A stretch of 64,000 nt of DNA, from positions 63,487,126 through 63,551,125 of the forward strand of contig OY997653.1 in NCBI GenBank assembly GCA_963921795.1, written 5' to 3'. This document shows positions 4,595-64,000 of the stretch, piece by piece. The position numbers and the translations under genes are program-made. Numbering within the stretch: position 1 is the first letter of the stretch; the number at the start of each line of letters is the position of its first letter. Source of the DNA: Nannobrachium achirus (taxonomy: Eukaryota; Chordata; Actinopteri; Myctophiformes; Myctophidae). The notes beneath the pieces were generated by a model that did no database searches, was not told the DNA's origin, and worked only from the letters and a program-made list of their open reading frames with translations.

Positions 4595-4667
4595 AAAAAT
4601 AGCAGATATACAAGCTCGCAGCGCGGCACCGAGTGCCGAGCTGCGAGCTTGTAGATCTGCTATTTTT
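4595..4667. repeat. Core palindrome, full tip (P1)
   Basis: AAAAATAGCAGATATACAAG, tip GCGCGGCACC/GAG/TGCCGAGC, then CTTGTAGATCTGCTATTTTT. Near-perfect arms of about 35 bp. First of a pair with 4921-4965. Confidence 0.95.
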
Positions 4668-4920
4668 GAAAAATCATGACAATTTGTTCAAATCTTTGAA
4701 TATACGTATATATTTTTTTAAAGGGAACATTTGTAACGCAAATATTTGCTTCTTGGGGGGTCCCTGATACAATATTTTGAGATGGGGGTCCGTGGCCAAA
4801 AACATATAATATTGGGGGTTCCTTCACATCAAAAAGTTTGAGCACCACTGACATAGAAACATATATTTTTTTTTTCTTCAAAAAACCTTAGAGTCGGGTC
4901 AAAATATTCAAAGATTTTTC
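4668..4920. mobile_element. Inner segment between paired palindromes
   Basis: Carries GGGGGTCCGTGGCCAAAAAC and TTTGAGCACCACTGACATAG, the reverse of a hAT-like end CAGTGGTGCTCAAAC. Its two ends (TTTTTGAAAAATCATGACAA and GATTTTTCAAAAATAG) are diverged inverted repeats that run into the palindrome arms. The same segment recurs at 16014-16296, 16778-16980, 28338-28592, 29161-29413, 33008-33240 and 63734-63973. Confidence 0.7.
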
Positions 4921-4965
4921 AAAAATAGCAGATCTACAAGCTGTGAGCTTGTATATCTGCTTTTT
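4921..4965. repeat. Core palindrome, short tip (P2)
   Basis: Arm AAAAATAGCAGATCTACAAG, tip reduced to CTGTGAG, return arm CTTGTATATCTGC. Confidence 0.93.
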
Positions 4966-5150
4966 CTTAAGAGCTGAAGCATGAAATGATATGCAATAAT
5001 ACGTACCCGGTCTAACTTGGTTAACAGAGAGAAAGAGCTGCCTGTGTCGAGCCTTGCGGTCATATTATGACAGTTGGGTTCTCAAAGTGCGGTTCAGGGA
5101 CCTCCCCGGGGGTCTTCGAGGAAGGGGGTCTGTGTGGGGGTCCCCCATGC

Positions 5151-5402
5151 CAGTGGTTCTCAACCTTTTCAGGCCGCGACCCCTAAAATAACCATATTAT
5201 AACTGGGGACCCCCCACCCTGACGAGCACCAAGAGTTGAGGCATTACATTTTGTATAACATGGTTCTATTGTGAAAATAGTAGATCTACATGCTCACAAC
5301 GCCTCACAACGAGGCGTTGTGAGCATATAGATCTACTATTTATGTTGCTTTGTTTACTGTTGAGTGAGAAAACAATGTTGCACATTAAGTTAATCATTTG
5401 GG
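5151..5402. mobile_element. hAT-type MITE, 3' truncated
   Basis: Starts CAGTGGTTCTCAACC and contains the palindrome at 5273-5341. Its right part (CAATGTTGCACATTAAGTTA) matches the intact relative 50222-50593 but stops near 5402 without the far TIR. The copy B twin starts at 29644. Confidence 0.7.
5273..5341. repeat. Core palindrome, GTAGATC variant (P3)
   Basis: GAAAATAGTAGATCTACATG, tip CTCACAACGCCTC/ACAAC/GAGGCGTTGTGAG, return CATATAGATCTACTATTT. AGTAG and CATG replace AGCAG and CAAG in both arms. Confidence 0.93.
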
Positions 5403-5599
5403 TTAGTTATGGATTGATTAGTTAGTAGGCCTACCCAGTGTTGTGGACAGACAAATTGTGGGCAGGTTACAAAGTTGCAGTGTTTGTTTACTGTTTGAGG
5501 AGGCAAGATTCATCTACTTATTAGCCAATTTATAAAATAATCTTGTAAGATTATGGAACAGATTTATAATTCCAGAGTTTTGCCTTTTATGGTTATTTT

Positions 5600-5775
5600 T
5601 CATTTTCAGTTACAGATATCGTGATATATCGTGGATGACATTTCTTGCAATATATCGAATATCGCAATATATCGAATATCGCAATATATCGAATATCGTG
5701 ATATTATTGTCATCGAGAGCCTAATATCGTGACAGATATCGTATCGTGAGGTAGCAATATCGTCACACCCCTTAT
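5600..5775. repeat. ATCG-rich MITE fragment
   Basis: Repeated ATATCGAATATCGCAATAT ending TATCGTCACACCCCTTA, resembling the complete element 36147-36710. Twin at about 30110-30275. Confidence 0.5.
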
Positions 5776-5776
5776 A

Positions 5777-5835
5777 TATAGGCTATATATATATATATAT
5801 AATATATATATATATATATATATATATATATATAT
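5777..5835. repeat. (TA)n
   Basis: Dinucleotide run. The twin in copy B (30276-30345) has a different length. Confidence 0.95.
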
Positions 5836-6214
5836 AAACAAACACTACTATCCTATATTGATTGAGCTTAACCATCCAGACATATAAACATGTCAGTACT
5901 ACCTCCACATACCTTTTTAAATGGAAATATATGGAGTAGTTGCAATAAAGTGCCAATAAAGTCAGAGAAGCTTCCAAAGGGGGAGAATTCCAGATTTCCT
6001 CTGTCTGGAGAGTGATTCCATAAATCCTTTTGTGGCCCTTTGGCTTCACTGCCTGCAGCATGAAAGGAGAACAGAGAGAGAAGGTGCATGAAAAGGAAGA
6101 CGAGTCTCGTTATGTGCAGCGGTGGAAGAAGAACTGGCGTTTCTTACTTACGTAGAATCGCTGCGATGTAGAAATACTCTCGCTGGGGCACTGTCACACC
6201 ACACTGTTATTCTA
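5836..6214. other. Duplicated sequence, no gene
   Basis: Matches 30346-30717. The 92- and 75-codon minus frames differ between copies by indels that shift the frame, which argues against coding. Confidence 0.55.
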
Positions 6215-6630
6215 CCCATGAGGGCGGGTTCTGCCAACGCATTTCAATGGGATTGGAGCGGTTTGCTGTCATTTGAGGCTTCATTCCCCTTTGAAATGCG
6301 GGACCGTCCCCAGGTTCTATGTGCTCTCTCTTCCCCCCCCCCCCCCATCCCCACATAAAGGTTCTATGTTCCCTGCTCAACCAAAAAAAGGATCTACTGT
6401 ATGTCCCCCCCCCCCCCCCCACAAAAAAAAAGTATATGTTCCCAACTCAAATGCAGGATATGGTGGGACAGTTGGTGCCCAGTTGCCCAGGTGCCCAGAT
6501 GTCCAGGTGCCCACTCGTCCAGATGCGCAGTCATAACCAAAGTATGGTGTCCAGATGTCCCTAGTGCCCCCTGTCCCACTAGTATTTGTAATTTCCCCCC
6601 ATTATTGTGTGTTTTGAGTTATTATTAATA
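6215..6630. other. Copy A-specific sequence with poly(C) runs
   Basis: Diverges from copy B at 6214. Contains C runs at about 6334-6350 and 6404-6420 and a short GTGCCCAG/ATGTCCAG repeat at 6475-6560. GGTTCTATGTTCCC near 6360 and GGGGAACATAGAACC near 7535 are inverted repeats on either side of the Helitron-like element, so the host is probably another MITE. Confidence 0.5.
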
Positions 6631-62524: not shown

Positions 62525-62785
62525 CAGGGGTTTTCAAAGTGGGTGACGGGGCACCCTGGGTGAATGTGTCTTGTGTGCTTGTAGATCTGATGTTTTCACT
62601 AGTTTAGTACATTTAATAGATGAAAAATACAAAACAAACGGTTTCGGACATTCAAGGTTTCCACCCGACAACGACGATATGCTATAAATATAAGGTGCTG
62701 AGAGTGAAAATTATAATGTAGGGGTGCCTCGGATTAAAACAATATTTATGGGGTGACCTGAGACAAAAGGATTTGGGAACCCCTG
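62525..62785. mobile_element. Nested hAT MITE, perfect TSD
   Basis: Ends CAGGGGTTTTCAAAGTGGG and TTTGGGAACCCCTG. CCCTAGGG is duplicated at 62517-62524 and 62786-62793. Interior has half palindrome P35 and segment A (CACCCGACAACGACGATATG), linking the A/B repeats to hAT. Confidence 0.9.
62576..62602. repeat. Half palindrome (P35)
   Basis: TGCTTGTAGATCTGATGTTT, TCACTAG; right arm only. Confidence 0.78.
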
Positions 62786-63002
62786 CCCTAGGGGTCCCGG
62801 ACCCCCTGTTGAAGACCCCTGGTATAGGGTTGTCCTTTCTCCCCTGCACTTATTTTAGTATCTTTTTAATAATTGTCAAACGTTTTGTATTGTTTTATAT
62901 CGTGCGAATAAACGCAAGTAATGATATCAGCAGTCGCTCACCAACCCCAGCAGAGCAGCAGACTTGGGTTGGATCAGCAGCAGGCTGTGTTTGTCTGTCT
63001 CC

Positions 63003-63101
63003 GTGTGTGTGTGTGTGTGTGTGTGTGTGTGTGTGTGTGTGTGTGTGTGTGTGTGTGTGTGTGTGTGTGTGTGTGTGTGTGTGTGTGTGTGTGTGTGTGT
63101 G
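63003..63101. repeat. (GT)n
   Basis: Dinucleotide run. Confidence 0.98.
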
Positions 63102-63125
63102 GGCGAGAGCTGTAATGTGTACCAA

Positions 63126-63183
63126 CAGGGGTGTCACACCAAACTCTGGGCCCTGGGTACAAGGATTCACTCACATTCTGTGC
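63126..63183 (+). mobile_element. hAT MITE left end (CAGGGGTGTCAC family)
   Basis: CAGGGGTGTCACACCAAACT, CTGGGCCCTGGGTACAAGGA, broken at TTCTGTGCC. Confidence 0.75.
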
Positions 63184-63184
63184 C

Positions 63185-63204
63185 ACGTTGTAATATTACA
63201 ACGT
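63185..63204. repeat. 20-bp perfect palindrome
   Basis: ACGTTGTAATATTACAACGT, at the break of the hAT fragment. Unrelated to the core palindrome family. Confidence 0.9.
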
Positions 63205-63699
63205 TTGTATTTTATCCAAAAAAAGGTTTAAATCATTTTATTTTAGCTCCCCCTACCACCTAAACACCACCATTGGATTCTATTGTTTAGTATTACAATG
63301 CCATTGGCCACAATATTTGCATATAAATACCCCCCACAGGGGCTGACATTCACACCCGCCACACCCGCTGAAATTCCAGAGTTTTGACGAACAACATCTC
63401 ACTTTTTCATGGAAGCTATACCTCAAAAAAACATAAGTAAAATGCCTGTGCTATTCTTTTTGGTGATCATTAGAATGTCTAGAACATGTACATATGTTAT
63501 TATTTTGAAAAATATCCCCCATATGTAAATTAGAGCATGATTTATGATTTTTGATTTATGGCTATAAAATCTTACAAAAACATTTTTTTGAAAAAAACAT
63601 TACATTTTCCTCTTAATAGGACTCCTACAACACCATCTGATTTTTTTCAATTTTTTATTTCAAGTATTTCTTAATGCGGGCCTTAGAGGGTTAACTATT
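63205..63699. other. No gene; promoter-like motifs
   Basis: CCATTGG (63301-63307) and an octamer ATTTGCAT (63315) overlapping TATAAATA (63322-63329). No transcript or frame downstream can be supported. Confidence 0.35.
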
Positions 63700-63733
63700 G
63701 AAAAACAGCAGATAGCTTGTAGATCTGCTATTT
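63700..63733. repeat. Core palindrome, tip and part of arm lost (P36)
   Basis: AAAAACAGCAGAT joins AGCTTGTAGATCTGCTATTT. Confidence 0.88.
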
Positions 63734-63973
63734 CTGAAGAAAACATGAAAATGTGTGCGGAGTCTGACTATTTCTGAAAAACCTGTGTTTCTATGTCAGT
63801 GGTCCTCAAACTTTTTCATGTGAAGGACCCCCAAAATGATATGCATTTTGCCACGGACCCCCATCTCAAAATATTTAATTCCAGGGACCCCCCAGAAGCA
63901 AAATTTGAGTTACAGATGTTCAATTAAAAAGTACATAATAATCAAAGATTTGCACACTTTTTCACGACTTTTC
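63734..63973. mobile_element. Inner segment between paired palindromes
   Basis: GTCAGTGGTCCTCAAACTTT, TTTGGCC-like region, GGGACCCCCCAGAAGCAAAA; ends in diverged inverted repeats as in 4668-4920. Confidence 0.7.
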
Positions 63974-64000
63974 AAAAATAGCAGATATACAAGCTCGCGC
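63974..64000. repeat. Core palindrome, cut by window end (P37)
   Basis: AAAAATAGCAGATATACAAG then CTCGCGC. Confidence 0.88.

Follow-up and report, generated by a model that had tools for sequence, protein, structure and literature searches.

How does one short palindrome come to lie inside MITEs with different ends? The question is raised by a 64,000-nt stretch of the Nannobrachium achirus genome (OY997653.1, positions 63,487,126-63,551,125, forward strand, assembly GCA_963921795.1; hereafter the window, to which all counts refer). MITE families ordinarily have common ends and differing interiors, according to the excerpted text of PMC2872659; the hosts described here reverse this pattern, with a common interior core and differing ends. 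We consider it an even call whether the core is a hairpin prone to recombination, about which the ends of MITEs have been exchanged.

A 20-nt arm matched the window 55 times at up to three mismatches, against an expectation of 0.00 (100 dinucleotide-preserving shuffles; mean 0.00, largest 0). At up to five mismatches there were 60 arms, which formed 39 sites, 21 two-armed and 18 one-armed, when opposed arms within 75 nt were merged. The site at 63482, with five mismatches, was discarded as chance, which leaves the 38 claimed by the initial annotation; the host ends it named are also present in the window. The arm match of one half copy, at 4126, falls before the start (4595) of the range given for that earlier finding. 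The window holds a segmental duplication (3466-6208 vs. 27344-30724, 95-96% identity) within which palindromes 29091, 29417 and 29769 are second copies, so that 35 independent sites remain, one of them (63977) cut by the window end. Sorted by eye, 12 of the 35 are two-armed with a stem of at least 27 nt and a largely kept centre, six have both arms and a lost centre, two are degenerate but two-armed, 14 are one-armed or lack part of one arm, and one is the cut site; 20 sites lack the centre or some or all of one arm.

The core hairpin is about 80 letters long; its arms measure some 36 nt, were read by eye as GAAAATAGCAGATCTACAAGCTCACAACGCGTCGC plus its complement, and vary between families in their inner part. 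In single-stranded DNA folding, eight of nine palindrome copies folded better than all 200 of their own shuffles, giving the stable stem-loop from inverted repeats that is seen in Angel; for the ninth, the degenerate copy at 26085, 8 of 200 shuffles folded as well. The two arms within one palindrome resemble each other more than they resemble the arms of other copies: 258 of 300 cells match, compared with 240.5 when partners are shuffled, an excess reached in 4 of 5000 partner shuffles. In five rows taken singly, own-arm matches were 22-29 of 30 against an other-row mean of 23.3, with two rows at about that level.

To judge from their sequences, the hosts are mostly putative hAT-type MITEs with differing ends (Table 1), spanning 206-1604 bp where delimited. 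The CAG...CTG tips and 8-bp TSDs are those of hAT MITEs, and short CAG-type terminal inverted repeats are present in F1-F5. For each of these five end types, one or more core-bearing copies carry an 8/8 TSD (four copies in all) or a 7/8 TSD (two copies), which agrees with the earlier claim that the hosts differ in their ends. Among the F1 copies, one of five delimited has such support; an 8-bp TSD is absent from 28222-28739 and 16654-17107 (3/8 each), from 51003-51208 (4/8) and from 32820-33384, where the flanking 8-mers differ. TA stands at the centre of the TSD in all four F2, F4 and F5 copies that have one, and these three types may belong to a Buster-like subgroup of hAT MITEs. By eye, no transposase was recognised among the 41 ORFs of at least 120 aa in the window.

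Table 1. Core-bearing features of the window, with the evidence for each.
Feature	Position	Strand	Evidence and remarks
F1 host, ends CAGGGGCGTCAC / CAGGGTGTCGC; palindromes 15977 and 16301, both centre-lost, flank a common centre	15644..16409	+	8/8 TSD GCTTCATG; alignment of copies
F1 copy, palindrome 16726 and half palindrome 16998	16654..17107	-	ends, alignment; TSD 3/8
F1 copy, palindromes 28271 and 28600 (one arm of the latter cut short)	28222..28739	-	CAGGGGTGTCAC at both ends; TSD 3/8
F1 copy, palindromes 32934-33006 and 33238-33316	32820..33384	+	alignment, arms, fold
F1 single-palindrome form, 50-nt arms at 51052-51101 and 51105-51154	51003..51208	+	alignment, arms, fold; right end approximate; no TSD seen
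F1 truncated copy, one-armed palindrome 44622	44527..44850	+	alignment, ends; right limit approximate
Half palindrome and remaining F1 end	4126..4246	-	comparison of duplicates
F1/F2 chimera	21650..22150	+	alignment to F1 and F2
F2 host, ends CAGNGGTTCTCAACC, one-armed palindrome 50353	50222..50593	+	8/8 TSD GCCTACAG
F2 host, palindrome 42413-42479	42175..42590	-	7/8 TSD; arms; one arm without inner part
F2 copy, palindrome 5275-5341	5151..5403	+	ends, arms; duplicated from 29644 on
F3 host, ends CAGTGTTG, palindrome 54458-54548 near middle	54248..54727	+	7/8 TSD
F3 second copy, palindrome 30934-31028	30718..31240	+	ends, arms; right end not delimited
F4 host, ends CAGGGGTTTTCAAAG, single arm at 62575	62525..62785	+	8/8 TSD CCCTAGGG
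F4-related block, palindromes 33682 and 33886; motif B between and after	33600..34030	+	limits approximate
F4-related block, palindromes 41626 and 41868; motif B before and between	41480..42000	+	limits approximate
F5 host, ends CAGGGGTCTTCAAC, single decayed arm 19492	19388..20991	+	8/8 TSD GACTAAGT
F6 host, F1-type interior, palindromes 4598 and 4924	4552..5024	+	TTAA-flanked ends TTAACCCGTTTAGGCC / TTAACCAAGTTAGACC
Palindrome, no host established	53129..53200	.	arms; no paired ends found around palindrome

Beyond the core, the hosts have little in common, as had been claimed. When host sets of our choosing were compared, 94 12-mers were common to at least two of them and 80 of these lay in the core; the other 14 are seven words on both strands: two from hAT tips, two from the core edge, GGGACCCCCCCA, a poly-C word and one more. 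Families are 0.78-0.85 identical to one another across the arm and 0.24-0.31 at 6 to 60 nt outside it, and the drop from about 0.8 almost to background takes place over the first five bases beyond the arm. In this comparison one F2 row stands some 3 nt off register, and each lone site was treated as a family of its own, although some are F1-like. When flank identity was instead taken in 10-nt bins with gaps allowed, free end gaps made the null too noisy to be informative.

A few junctions lie at or near the palindrome, and these support exchange. The F1/F2 chimera consists of an F2 end (21650-21744), an F1 centre, then F1 sequence (21913-22035) as far as the edge of palindrome 21968, and F2 sequence from 22044, with 84 of 100, 113 of 132 and 94 of 122 positions along its length matching F2, F1 and F2, respectively; the switch point, within 22036-22043, is the arm edge. 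The half palindrome at 4126 has a duplicate partner with 615 bp more (28022-28636), and one breakpoint of this difference, probably a deletion, falls within an arm. Palindrome 28600, the counterpart in the other duplicate at the 615-bp difference, is itself rearranged. The F1 interior also occurs within the TTAA-type ends of F6, a host that is duplicated from 29045 on and counts as one independent locus. TTAA stands on both sides of 4556-5020, and the tips read CCCG and CCAA, not the CC[C/T]T motif given in the excerpted text of PMC2872659, so F6 was not filed as piggyBac. The change from F1 to F6 is not sharp, weakened alignment running on for about 30 nt outside the palindromes.

We propose that the core may be one ancestral palindrome that has come to lie within the interior of several MITE families and is not itself mobile. 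Its capacity to fold into a hairpin or cruciform would make it a site of breakage and template switching. Core copies in different MITEs would recombine at the palindrome, so that one family's ends are joined to another's core, and any chimera left with two usable ends would be spread by whichever transposase recognises them. On this reading exchange, not shared ancestry, spread the core, with template switching or repair as the presumed mechanism. Five joined flanks of four families were tried as empty host sites and their best scores in the window were filled copies; no empty site was found in the window, which leaves both the direction and the mechanism of exchange presumptive. There are few junctions, and these could reflect the ordinary damage that an unstable palindrome suffers.

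Common descent is a serious alternative, though we hold it somewhat less likely: the palindrome would have lain in the interior of one hAT lineage, and selection on active copies would have preserved it (for example as a site for a transposase or host factor) as the ends and flanks drifted apart. It agrees with the CAG-type tips of five of the six host types, with the tip words that link F1 and F2, and with the TA-centred TSDs. Flank similarity between F1 and F6 that extends some 20-30 nt beyond the core, and a weak resemblance of the F1 centre to F2 in G/C-rich hAT-like stretches (scores 18-19 vs. a shuffle maximum of 17), count against exchange, and the F1/F2 likeness is what common descent would give. 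Descent accords less well with the variable spacing between a host's end and the closest arm, from about 50 nt (62525) up to 223 nt (54248), with the TTAA-type ends of F6, and with a hAT-like MITE at 36147-36710 that has an 8/8 TSD and no arm at up to five mismatches. Of the four core-bearing hosts that have an 8/8 TSD, three are one-armed (50222, 62525, 19388) and the fourth (15644) has centre-lost palindromes, although this damage may postdate insertion.

It is rather unlikely, in our estimation, that the palindrome seeds new MITE families, with hairpin-primed template switching that attaches a nearby DNA transposon end to it and can copy this end in mirror image, and a matching transposase that spreads the two-ended product. 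Among 17 mirror-image host comparisons, five (F1 solo, F6, F2, F3 30947 and F4 41626) had at most 3 of 300 shuffles as good, the matches in F2 and F6 being mainly terminal repeats; for the other 12, 7 to 277 of 300 shuffles were as good. A very small mobile element, perhaps TTAA-targeting, that inserted into several MITEs would fit the sharp core boundary and also the TTAA that, in four flank classes (F1L, F6, F4L and lone 53178), some copies have outside the arm at a constant distance. TTAA insertion of the core was rejected, however, as the opposite flank in all four classes lacks TTAA at that distance; direct repeats at the palindrome edges never exceeded shuffles at 19 distinct sites (20 rows; even at the best site, a fraction of 0.11 of the shuffles did as well), and the window yielded no empty site. 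A palindrome without a duplication of its own leaves self-insertion unsupported, and the small palindromic parasite suggested by the initial annotation now appears improbable. We give very little credence to the idea that the hairpin is maintained because it acts in RNA or chromatin, for instance as an insulator or the precursor of a small RNA: the predicted fold is very stable and several miRNA-family models match below gathering score in a 601-base stretch (best MIR2646, 50.1 bits vs. 245), but no Rfam model reaches its gathering score anywhere in the window, the weak matches occur on either strand, as expected of any long hairpin, and the centre or an arm is damaged at more than half of the independent sites.

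The initial annotation knew of no named family with this property; this needs qualifying, since the excerpted literature holds precedents in CMITEs (PMC2872659) and Tol2/Angel (PMC8151067). In the CMITE families of Acropora corals, differing TIRs surround a shared interior, as in the hosts here, and the interior, whose origin is called a mystery, is better conserved between families than the TIRs (PMC2872659, in excerpt); here, too, the interior is better conserved than the ends. The same excerpt describes CMITEs as about 100 bp long with TTAA TSDs and a CC[C/T]T tip in all families, whereas F1-F5 have hAT-type tips and 8-bp TSDs and do not show TTAA duplications with CC[C/T]T tips throughout; nor does it describe the 75-base CMITE interior as a palindrome, which the core here is. 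Tol2, a hAT element, holds an internal Angel element (PMC8151067, in excerpt). Compared by description only, Angel is likewise a fish inverted-repeat element that forms a stem-loop, one copy lying inside a hAT transposon, but the available portions of PMC3636048 and PMC8151067 do not describe it as common to several MITE families. Outside the window, the exact arm was absent from IMG/VR, where a 17-nt version matched in 35 stretches; no inverted partner arm (up to four mismatches) lay within 150 nt in any of them, and these matches were therefore taken as chance. A 22-nt version was absent from GTDB contigs, one F1 copy had no match among plasmids, and six arm strings did not occur in the text of the searched literature.

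The usual practice is to sort MITEs into families by their ends, with differing interiors expected. If the palindrome did seed new families, MITE families would arise around a shared centre and not only via internal deletion of autonomous elements. A core retained across different ends, with some junctions at the core, would give a testable route to new MITE families, and for repeat annotation, core matches link families that are otherwise unlike.

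The 20-nt search arm of the palindromic core (AATAGCAGATCTACAAGCTC) matches the window 55 times when ≤3 mismatches are allowed (mean of 100 shuffles, 0.00), and at ≤5 mismatches 60 arms are found at 39 sites, 21 of them two-armed. With site 63482 set aside as chance, this reproduces the 38 sites counted in the initial annotation; three are repeats inside the segmental duplication, leaving 35 independent sites. By our sorting, 12 of the 35 retain the two arms with the centre mostly intact, six have lost the centre, 14 (including 48531) have lost one arm or part of one, two are degenerate and one is cut by the window end, so that 20 palindromes are damaged in the centre or in part or all of one arm. 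When folded as single-stranded DNA, eight of nine copies did better than all 200 shuffles; the ninth, a degenerate copy, failed to do so.

Coordinates (window positions), ends and target-site duplications (TSD) of the host families (F1–F6) and neighbouring features
Feature	Positions	Ends or unit	TSD	Remarks
F1	15644-16409	CAGGGGYGTCAC	8/8	no TSD at four other delimited copies
F2		CAGNGGTTCTCAACC	8/8 and 7/8	
F3		CAGTGTTG	7/8	
F4		CAGGGGTTTTCAAAG	8/8	single arm
F4 element	62525-62785			apparently nested in an F5 end
F5		CAGGGGTCTTCAAC	8/8	single decayed arm
F5 ends	61397; 62821			followed by CCCTATAC and GTATAGGG, mutual reverse complements
Tandem array in F5	19693-20964	31 bp		unit similar to sequence adjoining F5 3' end
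F6		TTAA-flanked, differing from F1 ends		F1 interior (375/506 aligned positions)
hAT-like MITE	36147-36710		8/8	no core arm at ≤5 mismatches
Large hairpin element	93-403	TTAAAGGGCCAGTTCACC type		no core arm at ≤5 mismatches
F1/F2 chimera	21650-22150			F2 sequence flanks both sides
Motif B (≤8 mismatches)	16570, 33816, 33991, 41561, 41751, 41785, 62656	GGTTTCCACCCGACAACGACGATAT		mostly adjoins palindromes of F4-related blocks
Tandem array	7772-15241	74 bp		
Tandem array	36972-41380	82 bp		
Tandem array	45325-47325	5 bp		
Tandem array	55033-61088	35 (or 71) bp		
Segmental duplication	3466-6208 vs 27344-30724			95-96%, broken by a 615-bp difference

The window is teleost DNA in appearance, judging by its microsatellites, long satellites and hAT-type ends, and no gene was recognised by eye among its 41 ORFs of ≥120 aa. 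A scan of the window for inverted ends flanked by perfect 8-bp duplications returned four, against none in each of five shuffles; the duplications of the F1 copy in the table and of 54248-54727 were spotted by eye, beyond the scan, and then checked. By our assignment, F1 or the F1 centre accounts for 16 of the 35 sites (among them the chimera at 21968), F6-ended copies for three, F2 for three, F3 for two, F5 for one, and F4 and its relatives for six (32240 weakly), with the host not established at 21131, 26085, 35490 and 53132. The F1 copy at 51003 holds one palindrome; those at 15644, 16654, 28222 and 32820 hold two around a common centre, one of them halved. The arrangement of the two F5 ends in the table looks like the outcome of an inversion that took in part of one element along with its duplication.

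The proposal that hosts have little in common beyond the palindrome was upheld, since 80 of the 94 12-mers found in at least two of the host sets we chose, which leave out F6 and hostless sites, match the core at ≤2 mismatches. Among 53 outward flanks (after removal of six duplicate arms and 63482), pairs scoring >30 form eight groups, with 18 flanks ungrouped and a shuffle maximum of 17; scores of 17-30 link groups within F1, within F3 and within F4, and the F1 centre joins F2 at 18-19, F4 joins 32291 at 21 and one flank of 16726 joins F4 at 20, via motif B. Ungapped between-family identity is 0.78-0.85 over the arm and 0.42-0.47 over the ten inner positions after it. It averages 0.50 over the five positions just outside (0.79-0.83 at the two nearest the arm and 0.23-0.36 at the remaining three), then 0.29-0.31 at 6-25 nt and 0.24-0.27 farther out, in a profile where lone sites, some of them F1-like, count as separate families and one F2 row is shifted by about 3 nt.

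The two arms of a palindrome resemble each other: F2 has bases of its own in each arm at positions 5 and 15, position 21 is A in both arms of F4b, and position 23 is, with one exception, G in both arms of the F1 type and of 53132. In ten palindromes, relatives included, 258 of 300 cells agree between own arms vs 240.5 for shuffled partners, a level attained in 4 of 5000 shuffles. With one row each of F1, F2 and F3 and two of F4b, own-arm matches are 28, 29, 26, 22 and 24 of 30; arms from other rows average 23.3, so only F1, F2 and F3 show a clear effect.

Some junctions fall at the palindrome. In the chimera, F1 sequence ends at 22035, the arm edge, and F2 resumes at 22044. The 615 bp present in copy 2 of the segmental duplication and absent from copy 1 have one breakpoint within an arm, giving the half copy at 4126; we read the difference as a deletion in copy 1 because that copy retains just one F1 end, and in copy 2 the palindrome at the breakpoint is itself damaged. 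The change between F1 and F6 lies about 20-30 nt outside the palindromes, with no sharp switch.

The suggestion of a self-inserting palindromic parasite was not borne out: at none of 19 distinct sites (20 rows, one site entered twice) did direct repeats along the edges of the palindrome do better than shuffles (lowest fraction of shuffles doing as well, 0.11), which lends no support to a mobile element with its own duplication, and a search with the joined flanks of F1-F4 turned up no empty site in the window. Nor did an RNA family emerge: the window has no Rfam match at gathering score, and in a 601-base stretch the 15 matches with E of at most 1, mostly to miRNA models, were without exception under gathering. 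Descent of the hosts from one hAT lineage, with the core kept under constraint, also fits the window alone and stays a serious rival, because most hosts are hAT-type and F1, F6 and F2 show some flank similarity. The damage to palindromes in hosts whose TSDs are good decides neither for this descent nor for an exchange of ends, since it may postdate insertion.

As described in PMC2872659, coral CMITEs, like the hosts here, have an interior that is conserved between families whose TIRs differ. Tol2 is presented in PMC8151067 as a hAT element with an internal Angel element, and Angel in PMC3636048 (citing Izsvak 1999) as a stem-loop element of fish. Among titles and abstract openings, with few subscription journals covered, we found no report of several hAT MITE families with one palindromic core in common. 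The core here acts like an internal palindrome, not like a mobile element, and MITE ends may have been exchanged around it; such exchange would place some junctions at core edges and would account for the core as nearly the sole sequence that these families share.
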